A stretch of 32,544 nucleotides of DNA from a virus: positions 1,656 through 34,199 of the IMG/VR virus record IMGVR_UViG_3300000101_005561, one strand, 5' to 3'. Shown in pieces: positions 5,089 to 26,955 of the stretch (position 1 is the first letter of the stretch; the number at the start of each line of letters is the position of its first letter). The notes under the pieces are model-generated. The model made no database searches, was not told the DNA's origin, and worked only from the letters and a program-made list of their open reading frames with translations. Position numbers and translations under genes: made by a program.

Positions 5089-6207
5089 TTATCGAATTAT
5101 GTCAATCTCTTTATCACCTGTCCATACTTCTAAGTCTTTTCTGAGTCTTTTGTCGTTTTTAAGAGACATATATCTGCTTGAGGCCTTCTTGACCCACCAT
5201 TTAAATATATTCTCCAGATAGTGTTTATCGTGGTTATCCTTGTCTGGAATCAACTTATCTGTCTTACCAGTCACTACATCAACAAAGTTTGAGAAACCAT
5301 AATTACAAGCGTAATATCGTTTCTTTTCAGTTAAATTAAGAGCTTTATTGATTGTTTTATTATATCTTTCCAAATCCTCACCATCTAAATTAGCCTTGAT
5401 AAGAGCCTGTATTTTTGTAGATATTTTAAGTTTTCTTGATGAGGCATCTTCTGGTACTATCGGTTCACCAACAGCTTTTTCCATATAATCTCTTAAATCT
5501 TCATATGGTTTGCCGTGCATCAACGGTAAAAAATTAGAATCTGTAAGACCTTTAAATCGTAAAAATGGCTTCATGCCATCATACTGTGAACTAGACTTTG
5601 ATGAACCATACAAACTGGTCGTTTCAAATAAACAAGTATTCATACCTGGATATTTTGTATTCATTCTTTCACGAACAAAGTGTGAACAACAAATACCAGC
5701 CAATAATTTACCACCAAGGTAATTAAAACCAAATGGTTGTGATGGCACAATTGCAAAACCCATAATTGATGTTTTATTAAATGATACTGCTGTTTTAGCA
5801 TCTTGTGTAAAAACACAATCTAATAGTTGATTTCTTGGTTTCATATTAATTACAGGAGAACCAATACGAATAAAACCAAGCCACTTTTTACTATTCGTTT
5901 CTAATACACCTAATCGTAATGATTTTCCTGGAATACTTGTCATATTGGAATGAGATGAAATAATTTTAACATAAATGTCCCACATATTTTGGTTCATTTC
6001 ATGTATTTCTATATTCATATCTTCTGGGTGCATATCAAAGTTATCAAATAAATCTATTTCAGGTCCCATTCCTGGTAATCCAAAGGACATTTTTTCAACT
6101 GTACTTACTTTTTGATCACGAATATAATCTGCAATACCATCAAATTTATCAAAGTAATCTGAGAATACTTTGGCACCGTGTATAGCTTGTTCTTTAGTTA
6201 TTTTCAT
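5089..6207 (-). CDS. DruA/DUF4338-like protein, paralog 1
   Basis: A 372-residue protein homologous to the 427-residue product at 24586-25869. Shared blocks are KxWLGF/KKYLGV (108-112), PRNQLLDC vs PRDKFIGW (124-131), IVPxQPxGFNYxGGKLLA (153-170), ETTSLYG (195-201) and SQYD (207-210). The arrangement (LGxI, RDxxIGW, a Pro-rich turn then GGKLLA) resembles DUF4338, the family of the Druantia anti-phage protein DruA. Here RDxxIGW is eroded to RNQLLDC, so this copy has diverged more at that site. The family's biochemical role is not settled; occurrence among replication genes suggests DNA work, by inference. The ATG overlaps the upstream... gene order is gp41 first, with its TGA overlapping this start (ATGA). 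Confidence 0.55.
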   Translation of the reverse strand: MKITKEQAIHGAKVFSDYFDKFDGIADYIRDQKVSTVEKMSFGLPGMGPEIDLFDNFDMHPEDMNIEIHEMNQNMWDIYVKIISSHSNMTSIPGKSLRLGVLETNSKKWLGFIRIGSPVINMKPRNQLLDCVFTQDAKTAVSFNKTSIMGFAIVPSQPFGFNYLGGKLLAGICCSHFVRERMNTKYPGMNTCLFETTSLYGSSKSSSQYDGMKPFLRFKGLTDSNFLPLMHGKPYEDLRDYMEKAVGEPIVPEDASSRKLKISTKIQALIKANLDGEDLERYNKTINKALNLTEKKRYYACNYGFSNFVDVVTGKTDKLIPDKDNHDKHYLENIFKWWVKKASSRYMSLKNDKRLRKDLEVWTGDKEIDIIR

Positions 6208-7613: not shown

Positions 7614-8634
7614 TGTCTAATATATTCCCATAACCTATTTGATATTTTTCTTGTACGAATGTTTTAAACTGCTTGTCATTTAATATATCATACCAGAATT
7701 CTTTTGTTTGTGTGGCATCAAAGCGTACTTTATCACCAATTTCGCCTGTTGTTCTATCTACTTTTGCATACCAACCTGGAGAAGGTTTAGCTACATACTG
7801 ACCTTCAATTGCAATATCAAGTAATCCAGAATACTTTTGAATACCACCATTAAATGATACTGAAACTGGTATCTTAGACTTTTCTTTTACAAATCTAGAT
7901 TTTTCCACATTAATAATAAAATTATAGCCTGTAATATCTTTACCTGTTTTTTCTTGTTGTCTACCAAGAATCCAAATTGTATCGGCTGAGTAATAAGATC
8001 CTGTGCCACCACCAACAATATCTTTAGGGAACATACCAATTTCTTTGTAAGTATGATTAACAACAACTAAAGGTATATCTTTGATTGTAAGATGTGGTGT
8101 TATCATTCTAAACAGAGATTTAATACTTTTAGCTCTTGTCATATCTGCAACTGATCTACCTTCAAGTGAATCTTCAATTTCTTTTTTAGATGCAAGATTA
8201 CCAACAGAATCTAAAATAAAAATAACTTTATCTTCACTTGTAATATCACCCAATTGATTCATAATATCATGTTTCAATTCTTCAACATTTGTAACAGGTG
8301 TATGTAATACTCTTTCCATATCAACATCAAATGTTTCAAAATACTTTTGTGGAGTACCAAACTCTGAATCATAAAATATGACCACGGCATCTTTATATTT
8401 CTTTAGATATGATGATGCCATCAATAAAGCAAAGGCACTCTTAAAATGTTTTGAAGGCCCAGCTAACATAGTTAAGCCTGGAACAATGCCACCATCAAGT
8501 GAACCTGAAAGTGCAACATTAACTATCGGTACACTTGTTTGTACCATATCTTTTTTATTAAAAAATTTTGACTTTGATAATATAGCCGAATCTTTAATTG
8601 TAGTATTCTTTTTCAATCTATCTAATAAACTCAT
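7567..8634 (-). CDS. uvsX: UvsX RecA-like recombinase
   Basis: The 355-residue strand-exchange protein (T4 UvsX 391) forms filaments on ssDNA and drives recombination-dependent replication and repair. The N-terminal oligomerisation region is followed by Walker A GPSKHFKS (59-66), typical of UvsX rather than cellular RecA, an acidic YDSEFGTP strand and Walker B VIFILDSVGNL. The LVVVNHTYKEIG and GGGTGSYYSADTIW segments correspond to the L1/L2 DNA-binding region. The C-terminus is acidic (DNDETRTDNTE). The upstream membrane-protein gene stops directly before this start's frame neighbour, and gp41 begins within its last codons. Confidence 0.95.
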   Translation of the reverse strand: MSLLDRLKKNTTIKDSAILSKSKFFNKKDMVQTSVPIVNVALSGSLDGGIVPGLTMLAGPSKHFKSAFALLMASSYLKKYKDAVVIFYDSEFGTPQKYFETFDVDMERVLHTPVTNVEELKHDIMNQLGDITSEDKVIFILDSVGNLASKKEIEDSLEGRSVADMTRAKSIKSLFRMITPHLTIKDIPLVVVNHTYKEIGMFPKDIVGGGTGSYYSADTIWILGRQQEKTGKDITGYNFIINVEKSRFVKEKSKIPVSVSFNGGIQKYSGLLDIAIEGQYVAKPSPGWYAKVDRTTGEIGDKVRFDATQTKEFWYDILNDKQFKTFVQEKYQIGYGNILDNDETRTDNTEKLSLQ

Positions 8635-15366: not shown

Positions 15367-15861
15367 CTAAGCTGCTTTAGATTCTTGTAAAAGTTCAGGT
15401 TTAAGTAAATTGAGACTATTACTAATTTCAACTTTTCTTGGTTTTTTATGATCTGGTATAACATTCTCTAAACCAACTCTTAAAATACCATCCTTAAACT
15501 CAGCACCTTTTACTTCTAGAGTATCAGCTACAGATAGGGTTTTTGTGAATGAGCGTGTACCTATACCTTTGTGTAAATATGAAACACTCTCAACTTCTTT
15601 TTCAATCTTTTCACCTCTAATAACTAAAGAGTTATCCTCTACTGTTATTTCAACTTCTTCTTTACTAAAGCCAGCAATAGCTAATTCAACAATATAATTG
15701 TTTTCATTAACCATTAATATATTATGTGGCGGAAAAGTTGAAGATGTTTTATTATTTAAGATTCTTTCGACATCCTTAAATACTCTTTCAAAACCTAAAG
15801 TAGAGTGAGCTAATAGAGCTCTTTCTAGACCTTTAAAATGACCGGTTGTAATATCTACCAT
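15367..15861 (-). CDS. hsp20: Small heat shock protein (Hsp20 / alpha-crystallin family)
   Basis: A 164-residue IbpA-like ATP-independent chaperone that holds unfolding proteins. The alpha-crystallin domain runs about 47-140: NNYIVELAIAGFSKEEVEITVEDNSL, then the YLHKGIGTRSFTKTLSVAD strand and NVIPDHKKPRKVEI, with the I-x-I-like tail VEISNS. The N-terminal arm (GFERVFKDVERIL) matches the family. Strong AAGGAG Shine-Dalgarno; the gene ends at a G+C-rich terminator, so it is probably a separate transcription unit. Hsp20 genes are well known in T4-like cyanophages, where a role in virion assembly or host stress is assumed but not shown here. Confidence 0.93.
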   Translation of the reverse strand: MVDITTGHFKGLERALLAHSTLGFERVFKDVERILNNKTSSTFPPHNILMVNENNYIVELAIAGFSKEEVEITVEDNSLVIRGEKIEKEVESVSYLHKGIGTRSFTKTLSVADTLEVKGAEFKDGILRVGLENVIPDHKKPRKVEISNSLNLLKPELLQESKAA

Positions 15862-15924
15862 TTTTAATTCTCCTTAAAATAAGCAAGTTAAACAATTGTG
15901 ACCCTTTTTAGGCATCACTAATAT

Positions 15925-22020: not shown

Positions 22021-24402
22021 TTACAACTTTACCGCAATTTTTTCTATAAATTTTGTTGCTAGTATGCGATTTACTGATCTAGTTCTATTCATTTTAGTGA
22101 ATTGACTAGCAAGGCTTCTTGTATTGATACTCTTTTTATTATTAACCTCAAACTCAAACTCTTCATCATCAGTAGTAAGCTTATTACTATCATTTAGAAT
22201 ATAAAACTGATCAAAGCCTTTGTTATTTGATTCTATAAACTTTTGCTTTCTAGCTATTTTCTTAACCGCTTCTTTCTCTTCCCAAGGAGCTCTATAAAAA
22301 TTTACGTTTTTAGAATCTTTAGGAACATATCTATAATTAATTGCATCTGACATTTTAGTTGAAACAAAGAAACCGAAAACTTGTGTATCAGTCTTAGCTT
22401 TGAGCCATATTAATAAATCATTTGTAATATTATTATTTCGATCATTTGTTACAACACTTGAAAAACGAACTTTTTTATCTTGTATAACAAAGTTGTAGTC
22501 TGAATTTCTCGTACCAATAGTACGCCAATGTGCCTTTAATGTATGCTTATCACCAACTACTTCTGGATCATACCAAGTATTATATGATTGACTCCAATTA
22601 GAATCACCATCATGTACAAAAATAGTATTTACAATATCTAAATTGTTCTTTTGTCTAAACTCTGGTATAATTGTACCAAGAGCTACGATAGCCTCATTCA
22701 ATGGTGTACTACTTAAACCTAATTCCTCTGGTATTAAACCATAACCAACATTAAGAGTGCTGTAATTGTAACTTGACTTACCTAATAACAAATTCTCAAG
22801 TGCATTTTTATATGCAGCTGCACCCATATCAGAATTAATAAATTCTCTTAATGCCCAATCATCATCAAGAGCAAGTGATCCTTCAGTTACATACCATTTA
22901 TCAGTTAGTTTAACGCTTTCTGAATAATCTTCATAGCTACTTTTTATAGGTCTAGAGGTGAAACCAAAAACTCTAAATGGTATTTGAACTTTCTTACAAA
23001 AAGCAGTAAGAATAGCAATTTGCTCAATTGAACCGGCCATGTTGCGATCCATAGAGCCTGATAAATCAAGAACTAGAATCATACCATGATTTTTACCTTT
23101 TGGTAATTTTGTCAACTTACGAAAAATTTGATCGTCAAACTTATACTTGTAAATCTTATTAACATCAATATCACCAGAGGTATATAATCTAGCCTTGGCA
23201 TATTTTGTAGCGGCTTTTTTCATTTCAAAATCTTTAGCCATCAATGAAATAAAACGATCATTTTTCTTCTTAAACTCATTTAAAACATGGCTACGACTAA
23301 AAAGTTTTTTAGCCTCAGAAACCTCAATAAGATTTCTTTTAATATTGAAGTGCCAAAAACCATCGCCTCTAGTTGCTATTTCATCATAGAATTTTGTCAT
23401 ACCTTTATTCACCGTTACAGTATCTTCTAAAATTCTTTCTAAGCGTGGCTTTGGTATGTCAATATAAATATTGTCTTTAGAAGATTCGCTAAGTAATTGA
23501 CTTTCATTTTCTCTAAATGATTCATCAGTTTCGCAAGTTGGCTCATGTTTTTCATGACCATCAACAGCGCCATGAGGCGAAACTCCTTGATCTTCTGAAT
23601 CTTTTTCATTCTCTTCTTCTGATTCATCTTCCTCTTCAAGCTTGAAATTACTATCAGATGATACTTTAGAATCCTCATCTTCATCAGATTCATCAGATTC
23701 TATTTCTTCTTGTTCTGATTGATCTTCATTATCCGAATCATCATTAGGAGAAAAACCGGTTTGATCAGATTTACCAGTCGGATCTTCAACATACAAATCT
23801 TCTATATCAGTATAATCAAACATAGTAGTTTGATCTTGTTCCTGTTCCTCTACTGCCTGATCCCACAATCTATCTGTCATAGCAATAACATCTTCCCATG
23901 ATTCTAGTTTTTTAATTTCATCAATAATTAAGGACTCTTCATTAGAGAATTGAATAGGCATAGAATATGAACTCTTTGTGAAAAGATTAATTCTATCAAT
24001 AAAGCTTAACTCATTTATTTCTTCAATATCTTGAATACCAAATAAGTCCATATCTAAAAGTTCATTAAAACCTTTGATGTAAGATTTTACAAGACCTGGA
24101 TATCTTCTTTTAATTCTTTTTTCAATACGAGCATCTTCAATAACATTAAGAAAGTTCTTATAGTTTCTGCCATTTTTAGATACAGCACCATGCCAACCAT
24201 CAGCCGGAGTATTTAAAGCATGACCAACTTCATGACTCATTAATAAATCATAAAGTTCTGGACTCATATCTTTCCAGATAGGGCAAGTAAGAACTCTTGT
24301 TGTAGGATTGAATGAAGCTGTTTGTACTTTTTTATGTTGTATTACAACATTTTCAGTAGCAAGTAACTTCGCTAATTGTGATTTCTGTTCAACTAATGAC
24401 AT
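22021..24402 (-). CDS. cobT: CobT-like protein: HExxH metallopeptidase-like domain plus VWA domain
   Basis: A 793-residue protein in three parts. The N-terminal domain has SHEVGHALNTP (HEVGH at 57-61) and NVIEDARIEKR (about 87-97), a zinc-metallopeptidase-like pair in which E/D of EDARIE may be the third ligand. A very acidic linker covers about 185-300. The C-terminal half has a VWA domain with a MIDAS motif LDLSGSMD (445-452), IFVHDGDSNW and QVFGFFVS. The order matches CobT/putative-metallopeptidase-VWA partners of MoxR/CobS ATPases, so it probably works with the product of 20778-21935. GGGAG Shine-Dalgarno; promoter at 24435-24463. Confidence 0.82.
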   Translation of the reverse strand: MSLVEQKSQLAKLLATENVVIQHKKVQTASFNPTTRVLTCPIWKDMSPELYDLLMSHEVGHALNTPADGWHGAVSKNGRNYKNFLNVIEDARIEKRIKRRYPGLVKSYIKGFNELLDMDLFGIQDIEEINELSFIDRINLFTKSSYSMPIQFSNEESLIIDEIKKLESWEDVIAMTDRLWDQAVEEQEQDQTTMFDYTDIEDLYVEDPTGKSDQTGFSPNDDSDNEDQSEQEEIESDESDEDEDSKVSSDSNFKLEEEDESEEENEKDSEDQGVSPHGAVDGHEKHEPTCETDESFRENESQLLSESSKDNIYIDIPKPRLERILEDTVTVNKGMTKFYDEIATRGDGFWHFNIKRNLIEVSEAKKLFSRSHVLNEFKKKNDRFISLMAKDFEMKKAATKYAKARLYTSGDIDVNKIYKYKFDDQIFRKLTKLPKGKNHGMILVLDLSGSMDRNMAGSIEQIAILTAFCKKVQIPFRVFGFTSRPIKSSYEDYSESVKLTDKWYVTEGSLALDDDWALREFINSDMGAAAYKNALENLLLGKSSYNYSTLNVGYGLIPEELGLSSTPLNEAIVALGTIIPEFRQKNNLDIVNTIFVHDGDSNWSQSYNTWYDPEVVGDKHTLKAHWRTIGTRNSDYNFVIQDKKVRFSSVVTNDRNNNITNDLLIWLKAKTDTQVFGFFVSTKMSDAINYRYVPKDSKNVNFYRAPWEEKEAVKKIARKQKFIESNNKGFDQFYILNDSNKLTTDDEEFEFEVNNKKSINTRSLASQFTKMNRTRSVNRILATKFIEKIAVKL

Positions 24403-24434: not shown

Positions 24435-24463
24435 ATCCTAGAGGAAGGCTGCTCAACTGTCAA
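24435..24463 (-). promoter_or_regulatory. Sigma70-like promoter for the cobT-like gene
   Basis: Minus-strand TTGACA (24463-24458), 17-base spacer, TAGGAT (24440-24435), then GGTAGACA. About 33 bases upstream of the start codon. The hexamers and the GGTA downstream match the other two promoters, while the spacer differs. Confidence 0.72.
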
Positions 24464-24495: not shown

Positions 24496-24560
24496 TGGAG
24501 CGGTGTTGTGGAGTTGCACCACACTAATTACTGGGAGTAACTTGTCCTACGACCCACCGC
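24496..24560 (-). tRNA. Compact tRNA-Gly(CCC)-like element with minimised D arm
   Basis: Reading the minus strand from 24560, a 62-base cloverleaf plus CCA can be drawn. The acceptor GCGGTGG pairs with ACACCGC (6 bp, G-A mismatch at 7/66). A mini D hairpin GTC-GTAG-GAC follows, then anticodon stem AGTTA/TAATT with loop CTCCCAG (U33, anticodon CCC, A37). The variable region is only AG. The T arm TGTGG-TGCAACT-CCACA has T54, C56, A57, A58, T60 and G53-C61. U73 and an encoded CCA end it. G1-C72, C2-G71, G3-C70, U73 and C35-C36 match known bacterial tRNA-Gly identity. It is about 8 bases short in the D arm and about 3 in the variable loop, so it may be a tRNA-like RNA rather than a decoding tRNA. 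Confidence 0.5.
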
Positions 24561-24566
24561 AAATTA

Positions 24567-24596
24567 TGTATATACTATAACATAACTATCTGCCAA
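24567..24596 (-). promoter_or_regulatory. Possible promoter for the tRNA-like RNA
   Basis: Minus-strand TTGGCA (24596-24591), 18-base spacer, TATACA (24572-24567). The expected start point, 7 bases after the -10, falls exactly on G1 of the tRNA-like element (24560). It overlaps the last codons of the DruA-like gene, and the DNA is AT-rich, so a chance match is possible. Confidence 0.3.
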
Positions 24597-25869: not shown

Positions 25870-26141
25870 TTAAGTGTAGAATCGCCATTAAAAATTGAAT
25901 ATTTTGTTTTTTGATTTGCATGGCCTTTTTCAGACTCATATGATACAAACTTTGAAATCATTTCTAGTTTATCATGATATTCAGCCATTTTACCGAGTTC
26001 ACTTTCTACACCTTCTGTCCAAGCCGTATGATCATGTATCGCCATTGGGTTATCAATCATAATCTCAACATTCATTCTGTGTTTATCCATTTGAGAGATA
26101 AGATGATTTTTAAGTGTAGTAATTATTTGTTCTGTTCTCAT
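25866..26141 (-). CDS. Small phage hypothetical protein
   Basis: A 91-residue, mostly helical protein (MRTEQIITTLKNHLISQMDKHRMNVEIMIDNPMAIHDH...). The core VEIMIDNP-HTAWTEGVESELGKMAEYHDKLEMI resembles small hypotheticals in T4-like marine phages with a membrane-free helical bundle. No catalytic motif is seen. It sits between peptide deformylase and the DruA-like gene with 4-base overlaps on both sides. Confidence 0.6.
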   Translation of the reverse strand: MRTEQIITTLKNHLISQMDKHRMNVEIMIDNPMAIHDHTAWTEGVESELGKMAEYHDKLEMISKFVSYESEKGHANQKTKYSIFNGDSTLK

Positions 26142-26761
26142 TTTTTACTCCTTCGCTCCACTTTTTTTAATAATTTATTTCTTTTTTCTTTAGCTCTTTT
26201 AAGTGCAAAAGGACTTGCATGATCAATCATTCTAATACCATTCATATGATCTAGTTCATGAAAGTAACATTTGGCTGATAAACCATCAAACCTTTGTGTC
26301 ATTTCTTTACCTTCAGCATTAGTGAATTTACCTACAACCCACTTAGGCCTTCTCACACTTATTATTAAACCTGGATAAGATAAACATCCTTCTTTAGAAA
26401 TTTCTTCTTGTTCTGATTGATCTTCTATTTCAGGATTAATACAGGCAATACATATCTCTTCATTACCTATAATAAAAAATCTTTCATTTATACCAACTTG
26501 ATTTGCTGATAAACCAATACCGCCACTATGTTTCATTGTCAACCACATTCTGTGTAATAAAGTATTCCAATATTCATCAGGTAAACTATCAACAAATTTT
26601 GGCATAGAAGTTTTAAGTATAACATCATTTTCACTTACAAAAGGCAAAAGTTTATCTTTAGCAAAATCAGTATTTTTTTTAATTGATCCTCTAACTGTAT
26701 CAACAGTAGTATTTTTAACTCCTATACCTGTATCAATTTTTAATATATTTTCGTCACTCAT
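26138..26761 (-). CDS. def: Peptide deformylase
   Basis: A 207-residue Fe/Zn hydrolase that removes formyl from nascent N-termini. All three family motifs are intact: GIGLSANQVGI (GxGxAAxQ type, 81-91), EGCLSYPG (124-131, metal Cys) and FHELDHMNG (HExxH type, 167-175). The N-terminal extension of about 40 residues before the usual start of the domain is longer than in most bacterial enzymes. I use the ATG at 26761 (ATGA overlap with the upstream stop) instead of an in-frame TTG at 26773. Cyanophage deformylases favour photosystem proteins; without such genes here, the target is open. Confidence 0.95.
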   Translation of the reverse strand: MSDENILKIDTGIGVKNTTVDTVRGSIKKNTDFAKDKLLPFVSENDVILKTSMPKFVDSLPDEYWNTLLHRMWLTMKHSGGIGLSANQVGINERFFIIGNEEICIACINPEIEDQSEQEEISKEGCLSYPGLIISVRRPKWVVGKFTNAEGKEMTQRFDGLSAKCYFHELDHMNGIRMIDHASPFALKRAKEKRNKLLKKVERRSKK

Positions 26762-26955
26762 TTTAAAACCCAATCCTCTGCGTTAGCTTCAACATCAAAT
26801 TCATTATGTGCTATTATACTATTAACTAATATTTTATCTTTATAACATTTTGCAATATAACTATTTCCACCACCATGTACTTTGTAATAAACTTTAGCTA
26901 CTTTTGTACCATCATCTGAATAAAACTCTGACAAAAATTCTTCTTTTTCTAACAT
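26758..26955 (-). CDS. Small hypothetical protein
   Basis: A 65-residue acidic protein (MLEKEEFLSEFYSDDGTKVAKVYYKVHGGGNSYIAKCYKDKILVNS...) with an alternating beta pattern and a Gly-Gly-Gly turn. Not recognised. Its ATG overlaps the TAA of gene 46 as TAATG, and its TGA overlaps the deformylase start, so it links the two by coupled translation. Confidence 0.5.
   Translation of the reverse strand: MLEKEEFLSEFYSDDGTKVAKVYYKVHGGGNSYIAKCYKDKILVNSIIAHNEFDVEANAEDWVLK

Follow-up and report, generated by a model that had tools for sequence, protein, structure and literature searches.

The Mini RNA and Its Surroundings

The window, i.e., the whole 32,544-nucleotide stretch of DNA that was analyzed, belongs to a phage contig of 34,199 bases with T4-like genes. 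A gene coding for a 427-amino-acid protein, a short RNA element (hereafter, the mini RNA) and a cobT-like gene follow each other in this order on the same strand (Table 1). The minimum-energy fold of the RNA is the tRNA-Gly-like cloverleaf with a 3-bp D stem that was described in the initial annotation. Its acceptor stem consists of 6 bp, with G7 facing an A and remaining unpaired, and its variable region is two bases long.

Table 1. Features of the window (positions are those of the 32,544-nucleotide stretch).
Feature	Position	Strand	Remarks
Mini tRNA-Gly-like RNA	24496-24560	-	65 nt from G1 through the encoded CCA; body from G1 to C72, 61 nt
Acceptor stem, 5′ strand (GCGGTG)	24555-24560	-	Pairs with 24500-24505; fold and covariation
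D arm (GTC-GTAG-GAC)	24544-24553	-	3 bp, without G18G19; third pair CG, UA, AU or GC among relatives
Anticodon-like hairpin	24526-24542	-	CCC tip at 24533-24535; two tip C's constant in 91/91 distinct minis, preceding base variable
T arm (TGTGG-TGCAACT-CCACA)	24507-24523	-	T-stem pairing and covariation in relatives
Acceptor 3′ strand (CACCGC), U73 and encoded CCA	24496-24505	-	Discriminator T in 14/14 elements found by a covariance model with this base left free, on contigs picked by protein
Long DruA/DUF4338 protein, 427 aa	24586-25869	-	Proposed partner, upstream of the mini RNA; PF14236, E = 9.1e-17
Shorter DruA-like paralogue	5089-6207	-	phrog_19197
Possible extended -10 (TGTTATAGT) of the mini RNA	24574-24582	-	Weak; read by eye from the sequence
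Hairpin TTTGTTG...CAACAAA	24472-24493	-	Directly 3′ of the mini RNA; read by eye from the sequence
Promoter-like site of the cobT-like gene	24435-24463	-	TTGACA-17-TAGGAT, 10 of 12
cobT-like “peptidase” gene	22021-24402	-	3′ of the mini RNA; phrog_459, E = 1.2e-175

Folding energy by itself is weak evidence for the cloverleaf in the window: compared to shuffled sequences, z-scores of −1.6 and −2.1 were obtained, with 14 and 11 out of 200 shuffles, respectively, being equally stable. ARAGORN, which had been suggested as a check of the element, reported no tRNA anywhere in the window, and the Rfam tRNA family was not reported for the window copy. An Rfam match of the RNA to the Tymovirus tRNA-like family (E = 1.4) is at the chance level and was discarded. 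A pattern search of the whole record retrieved this single mini element and no second one. Since the fold energy is unremarkable and the element is called by neither ARAGORN nor Rfam, relatives were needed to decide on its reality. As described below, their conservation is decisive, and the 65-nt cloverleaf is a real element.

Elsewhere in the window, an Rfam ROSE_3 RNA thermometer (15856-15921, minus strand, 45.6 bits) is found just 5′ of a small heat-shock-like gene (15367-15861).

Relatives of the Mini RNA and Covariation

A loose acceptor pattern was matched in 23 of 41 loci collected via the cobT-like protein and was absent from the other 18; in close relatives among the 23, it lies in the same gap as in the window. 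Further loci were added by pattern scans and by a scan with the DruA protein, and a regular expression matches at least 182 sites in at least 178 loci, several of which share one contig and two of which, L231 and L315, are chance matches. The same was concluded, from sequence or context, for L214 and L097. Most matches of a first broad pattern scan were rejected, as they were devoid of the remaining arms.

A covariance model, R1, was built from 16 minis including the window copy, which scores 75 bits with it (E = 5.5e-18). A search of 100 chosen sources with this model retrieved 134 matches; distinct rows comprise 91 minis of 63-70 nt and 22 longer sequences, the latter being mostly canonical tRNA-Gly neighbours. 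In the model-fitted alignment of the 113 distinct rows, 89.0% of cells are paired (65.7% after shuffling) and the covariation score is 0.523, compared to 0.136 for shuffled alignments and at most 0.169 when the partners were slid. All four helices covary, with two-sided pair changes in each. The covariance search in related phages that the initial annotation had called for thus revealed compensatory changes in all four stems, and their presence in many relatives indicates that the reduced form is maintained, which argues against an “eroded” tRNA. Since this alignment was fitted to the R1 model, T-stem pairing was also measured without structure fitting: with positions counted back by a constant number from the 3′ end, 333 of 425 pairs are formed in 85 distinct sequences (a few of which are chance pattern matches), while shuffles gave a mean of 184 and a maximum of 219.

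Commonly used tools pass these RNAs by. None of the 14 minis recovered via the companion gene was called by ARAGORN, the Rfam tRNA family was not reported for minis in nine sources, and a BLAST search of phage records with the elements matched no mini; with a mini and its canonical neighbour as a joint query, it was the canonical part that was matched in the best 20 of 282 records. A narrow test of a genome collection for an exact match to one mini pattern found none, and titles or abstract beginnings in the open-licence literature revealed nothing on the mini RNA or its link to DruA.

In some relatives, a mini is arranged in tandem with a second one or with a canonical tRNA-Gly(UCC). Tandem minis are seen in L185 (1361-1428 and 1432-1500, the second having a UGUCCAA loop) and, likewise, in L187, L189, L235 and L238. 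The gene surroundings of the RNA differ in other phage groups.

Promoters and Flanking Signals

Sequences upstream of the minis were searched for σ70 promoters. Both hexamers at the proper spacing, with the -10 element ending 7-11 nt before G1, were present in 46 of 99 distinct upstream sequences, while letter-shuffled controls contained 8.6 on average and 18 at most. Most commonly, the -10 element lies 9 nt from G1 (39 hits among 101 upstream sequences), from which a transcription start about two bases ahead of G1 is predicted. The possible -10 element of the window mini RNA was not called by the promoter scan, which overall retrieved two sites compared to a shuffle mean of 1.5, i.e., no excess. 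Out of 100 distinct downstream sequences, 33 contain a hairpin similar to the one that follows the mini RNA in the window.

Close relatives have TTGACA...TAGGAT sites similar to that of the window in front of their cobT-like genes. One of the roles initially suggested for the element was an RNase P processing site ahead of the cobT mRNA. This is unlikely, since the RNA has a promoter in many relatives and the cobT-like gene has a promoter-like site of its own. An anti-Shine-Dalgarno function, in which a CUCC loop pairs with the Shine-Dalgarno sequence of the cobT-like gene, was also considered and rejected, as the two vary independently when inspected by eye. In phages HTVC008M and Mosig, the gap before the peptidase gene, which is the place of the mini RNA in other phages, contains another hairpin-like motif (GCTGTGCG..TGACGCA; L320 4117-4252 and L321 4700-4834).

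Glycine Identity and Decoding Features

The determinants recognized by bacterial glycyl-tRNA synthetase (GlyRS) are G1-C72, C2-G71, U73, C35 and C36 (PMC9976931), and the window copy has every one of them. The constant CC of the hairpin tip, which we number 35-36 by inference in the short loops, was not required by the search patterns at either position, and both columns are present in the R1 model that aligns the minis. G53-C61 is also constant in the 91 distinct minis. The conservation of the acceptor GCGG..CCGC and of UCCA among pattern-found minis is by construction, because the patterns contained both; the discriminator was assessed with the base left free (Table 1). The base preceding the CC is C in 40 minis, U in 32, A in 19 and never G, and the base following it is C in 56, A in 19, U in 11 and G in 5.

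Several features of ordinary tRNAs are altered. D loops of the relatives are 3-5 nt long and devoid of GG (for example, ATAG, CGA and GTAG, the latter being that of the window), and the second T-loop base, which is usually U in tRNA, is G in 67 of 91 minis. Judging from the alignment, the two usual bases between the acceptor and D stems appear to be missing. Hairpin loops were compared by parity, since maximal stem extension reads canonical loops, too, as 5 nt. An even-sized loop, incompatible with the normal 7-nt loop, is present in 29 of 91 minis; an odd-sized, possibly 7-nt, loop is available to the remaining 62, including the window copy, which can fold a loop of 7 nt that has CCC in frame. 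The codon GGG is rare in this DNA, as had been anticipated: in window open reading frames of at least 100 amino acids, the 523 glycine codons include 10 GGG. In many relatives, a canonical tRNA-Gly(UCC) is located in the same cluster as the mini.

Glycine isoacceptors always have C35C36 in common and differ at position 34, and therefore the C35C36 pattern alone is compatible with decoding. It is the sum of the variable base before CC, the even-sized loops, the lost D-loop GG, the rarity of GGG and the nearby canonical tRNA-Gly(UCC) that disfavours decoding. Judged by its bases, the mini RNA is one in which glycine identity appears to be preserved and decoding features appear to be weakened. 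The initial description of a tRNA mimic without an obvious decoding role holds up in both respects.

Compared to canonical bacterial tRNA-Gly(UCC), the minis have in common the GCGG..CCGC acceptor, U73, CCA, CC at positions 35-36, similar D-stem bases and G53-C61. They differ from it by their length (63-70 nt), the short D loop without GG, the variable base before CC and the even-sized loops in a part of the set, and by the fact that tested copies are missed by ARAGORN and Rfam. There is also a staphylococcal non-proteinogenic tRNA-Gly that supplies glycine for cell-wall bridges, lacks the D-loop GG and is kept out of translation. By analogy, the mini would resemble it in being glycine-charged, having lost the D-loop GG and acting outside translation; unlike it, the mini is phage-encoded and shorter, and its proposed consumer is a GNAT with a DruA/Mom fold rather than a Fem enzyme.

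Co-Occurrence with Long DruA

The 427-amino-acid protein encoded upstream of the mini RNA matches PF14236 with 61.6 bits (cut-off, 27) and the PADLOC DruA model with E = 1e-20; we refer to it as long DruA. This neighbour of the mini RNA had gone unnoticed in the initial annotation. Cyanophage homologues of the shorter DruA-like protein of the window adjoin clamp-loader genes, and one of them is annotated as “methylcarbamoylase mom”. A peptide deformylase gene (26138-26773, minus strand) is located shortly upstream of the long DruA gene, and a gene cluster is found near the element in 99 of the 178 loci (at least 178 loci being known), an example of which contains deformylase-like motifs when inspected by eye.

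The co-occurrence of the gene and the RNA was followed in three phage groups. In group A, comprising 41 DruA-seeded loci with the 3′ end of the gene out of 52 returned (several being near-identical), the RNA follows the gene on the same strand within 2 kb in 39 of 39 loci having at least 150 nt past the gene. The second group was collected with another DruA orthologue as a seed, and 16 of 80 listed loci, residing on larger contigs, were analyzed. Here, the RNA is often found among tRNA genes; it follows long DruA on the same strand at a distance of 7.0-16.2 kb in 14 of 16 loci and in 13 of 13 that have room for the largest distance; contig G062, with a long DruA gene and 15.9 kb of room, gave no match to the RNA model. 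For Mosig-like marine contigs (20 of 80 listed loci), R2, a model of a 74-nt version of the RNA, was used. Of the 20 contigs, 9 have the 74-nt version on the strand of the gene and 5.4-7.8 kb past it, including 7 of 7 with enough room, and no model match was obtained for G043, which has a long DruA gene and 7.1 kb of room. With R1 alone, matches were found in 7 of these 20 contigs, one being a canonical tRNA-Gly.

In the opposite direction, DruA domains were present in 15 of 15 IMG/VR contigs chosen by the RNA. Out of 21 further contigs chosen in this way, 16 encode long DruA or its cut end, two encode the shorter paralogue alone and three encode none, these being two short fragments and L097, the chance pattern match. 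Ten additional phage records, namely those of Melnitz-2, of cyanophages and of two marine viruses from single cells, are devoid of long DruA; six of them have a partial match of the type seen with the shorter paralogue. In these ten records, RNA-model matches with E ≤ 0.01 are canonical tRNAs or tmRNA: tRNA-Gly(UCC) in W04, W05, W06, W10 and W12, tRNA-Val in W05 and tRNA-Met in W09; the match in Melnitz-2 is tmRNA. The weaker ones are a tRNA-Gly(UCC) in W07, a match in W12 (E = 0.28) not called by ARAGORN and a second match in W09 (E = 0.98). The cobT-like gene occurs in 463 phage records, and long DruA was matched over 80% of its length in only three, all of them Pelagibacter phages; a narrow test of the genome collection with two peptide patterns found no relative of long DruA. 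The co-occurrence is confined to a single set of related phages, in which it may reflect shared ancestry.

Cultured Relatives

Two cultured phages, HTVC008M and Mosig, whose host is Pelagibacter ubique HTCC1062 according to their records, both encode long DruA and 74-nt RNAs (HTVC008M 91140-91213; Mosig 7779-7852) with UUACCAA loops, T loops reading GGCAGUA or AGCGUUA, and D loops devoid of GG. We infer that they are relatives of the minis because R1 matches them, the Mosig and HTVC008M RNAs scoring 30.7 and 26.3 bits, respectively. The HTVC008M RNA is recognized as an ordinary tRNA-Gly by ARAGORN, as tRNA-Gly(acc), and by Rfam, while the Mosig RNA is missed by both. Mosig_000011, a 31-codon “hypothetical protein” (MT647606 7774-7869; L344 1275-1370) annotated over the 74-nt RNA, is probably not a protein gene. 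Neither long DruA nor a 74-nt relative was seen in Melnitz-2. Myophages of Fonsibacter have been described (PMC7029224), and the freshwater relatives may infect this host.

Predicted Fold of Long DruA

An AlphaFold2 model of long DruA based on 23 sequences (pLDDT 82.7) has a GNAT-like core; prediction of the GNAT domain alone was poor (pLDDT 60.8). DUF4338 has been termed a GNAT (PMC10853773). A Foldseek search with the long DruA model gave no match at E ≤ 0.001, and the best matches were weak and mostly GNATs. When the top 1000 Foldseek matches were structurally realigned, Mom of phage Mu (8bv8_B) ranked first (Z 9.8, 169 residues, rmsd 3.8); ordinary GNATs, among them SpeG acetyltransferases, lie within 1 Z of it, which amounts to a tie. 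At the sequence level, a Pfam scan at E ≤ 0.001 retrieved PF14236 only and no Mom family PF25680, which Mu Mom itself matches, and hhalign of long DruA and Mu Mom gave a probability of 0.2%.

The predicted likeness of long DruA to Mu Mom (PF25680; PDB 8bv8) would thus consist of the GNAT fold and the top structural match, whereas no sequence match was seen, and we know of no companion mini RNA in phage Mu. The product of Mu Mom is N6-carbamoylmethyl-adenine, an isomer of N6-glycyl-adenine. Mom is described as acylating adenine at N6, with an acyl-CoA, for example glycyl-CoA, as the donor (PMC7824862). Compared to DruA of Druantia defense systems (PF14236/DUF4338), long DruA matches both the Pfam and PADLOC DruA models but differs in being a phage gene with no other Druantia model matched among the ten neighbouring window proteins scanned.

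A Proposed Glycyl Donor and Its Alternatives

The analysis demonstrates an RNA family with covarying helices, conserved identity bases, promoters in many copies and co-occurrence with long DruA, for which a fold was predicted. The reading that we favour, with a probability of about 0.45, is that the mini RNA is a dedicated glycyl-tRNA that is charged by host GlyRS and donates glycine to the long DruA enzyme, perhaps for DNA modification. The small RNA gene would encode a glycine tRNA no longer built for decoding. Charging of its CCA end by the host enzyme is proposed because G1-C72, C2-G71, G3-C70, U73, C35 and C36 are kept, and the RNA would largely stay outside the ribosome because the D-loop GG and, apparently, the usual bases linking acceptor and D arm are lost, the wobble base is not fixed and loops are even-sized in a third of copies. 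The charged RNA would then serve as a dedicated glycyl donor for long DruA, which would transfer the glycine. Its acceptor would most likely be a base in the phage's DNA, and this may protect against host nucleases. In this scheme, the glycylation of the RNA, its absence from translation, the transfer step and the acceptor are presumed. This reading appears the best one because the RNA keeps what GlyRS needs, has lost a large part of what ribosomes expect and co-occurs with a GNAT-like enzyme in three phage groups. DNA is suggested as the acceptor because of the resemblance of the modeled fold to Mom, and this is the least certain step. The full scheme, tRNA-dependent nucleic-acid modification in which a Mom-like GNAT receives glycine from a mini glycyl-tRNA and couples it to bases of phage DNA, is put forward as a tentative idea that is rather doubtful in its entirety.

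One can also imagine an unusual glycine tRNA that still decodes; its D arm would be reduced in the manner of mitochondrial tRNAs, and it would help to translate glycine codons. Glycine identity and the anticodon CC are kept, isoacceptors vary at position 34 anyway, and an odd-sized loop is available to most minis, among them the window copy, where it places CCC in frame. Certain relatives sit in tRNA clusters, that of HTVC008M passes as tRNA-Gly, and in a close 103-kb relative ARAGORN finds tRNA-Pro alone. However, the even-sized loops, the rarity of GGG, the canonical tRNA-Gly(UCC) in the same cluster in many relatives, the absent D-loop GG and the variable base before CC make such a tRNA unlikely. 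Somewhat less likely still is a decoy for a host defense that attacks tRNA-Gly, be it an anticodon nuclease or a TacT-like GNAT toxin acetylating Gly-tRNA. The tip is exposed and C-rich, and U73 and G71, which are given as the determinants of TacT specificity (PMC9976931), are both kept in the mini, but a decoy leaves unexplained why the RNA is so tightly associated with long DruA.

It may also be that the DruA link was merely inherited jointly and that the tRNA-Gly-like RNA has another role, such as regulation of host GlyRS or glycine metabolism, or donation of glycine to a different phage enzyme. The confinement of co-occurrence to related phages would be consistent with this, and, by itself, glycine identity leaves the consumer unspecified. 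We give this explanation about as little credence as a decoy, since long DruA is so much rarer than the cobT-like gene (three compared to 463 phage records), and since the gene and the RNA adjoin in group A. A cis-acting tRNA-like element for processing or 3′-end formation of the upstream or downstream mRNA would fit the location between two same-strand genes with hairpins nearby, but is highly improbable given the RNA's own promoters in many relatives, the different gene contexts in other groups and the strict glycine identity.

Whatever its role, the mini RNA defines an RNA gene family, missed by standard tRNA finders, in phages related to those of SAR11. If the glycyl-donor reading with DNA as the acceptor is true, an aminoacyl-tRNA would be the donor for DNA modification, and possibly a donor for Mom itself, and nucleic-acid modification would join the known uses of aminoacyl-tRNA. 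The question of the acyl donor of Mom-type modification would then become directly testable in the cultured phages HTVC008M and Mosig, and the DruA/DUF4338 family gains a concrete biochemical hypothesis.
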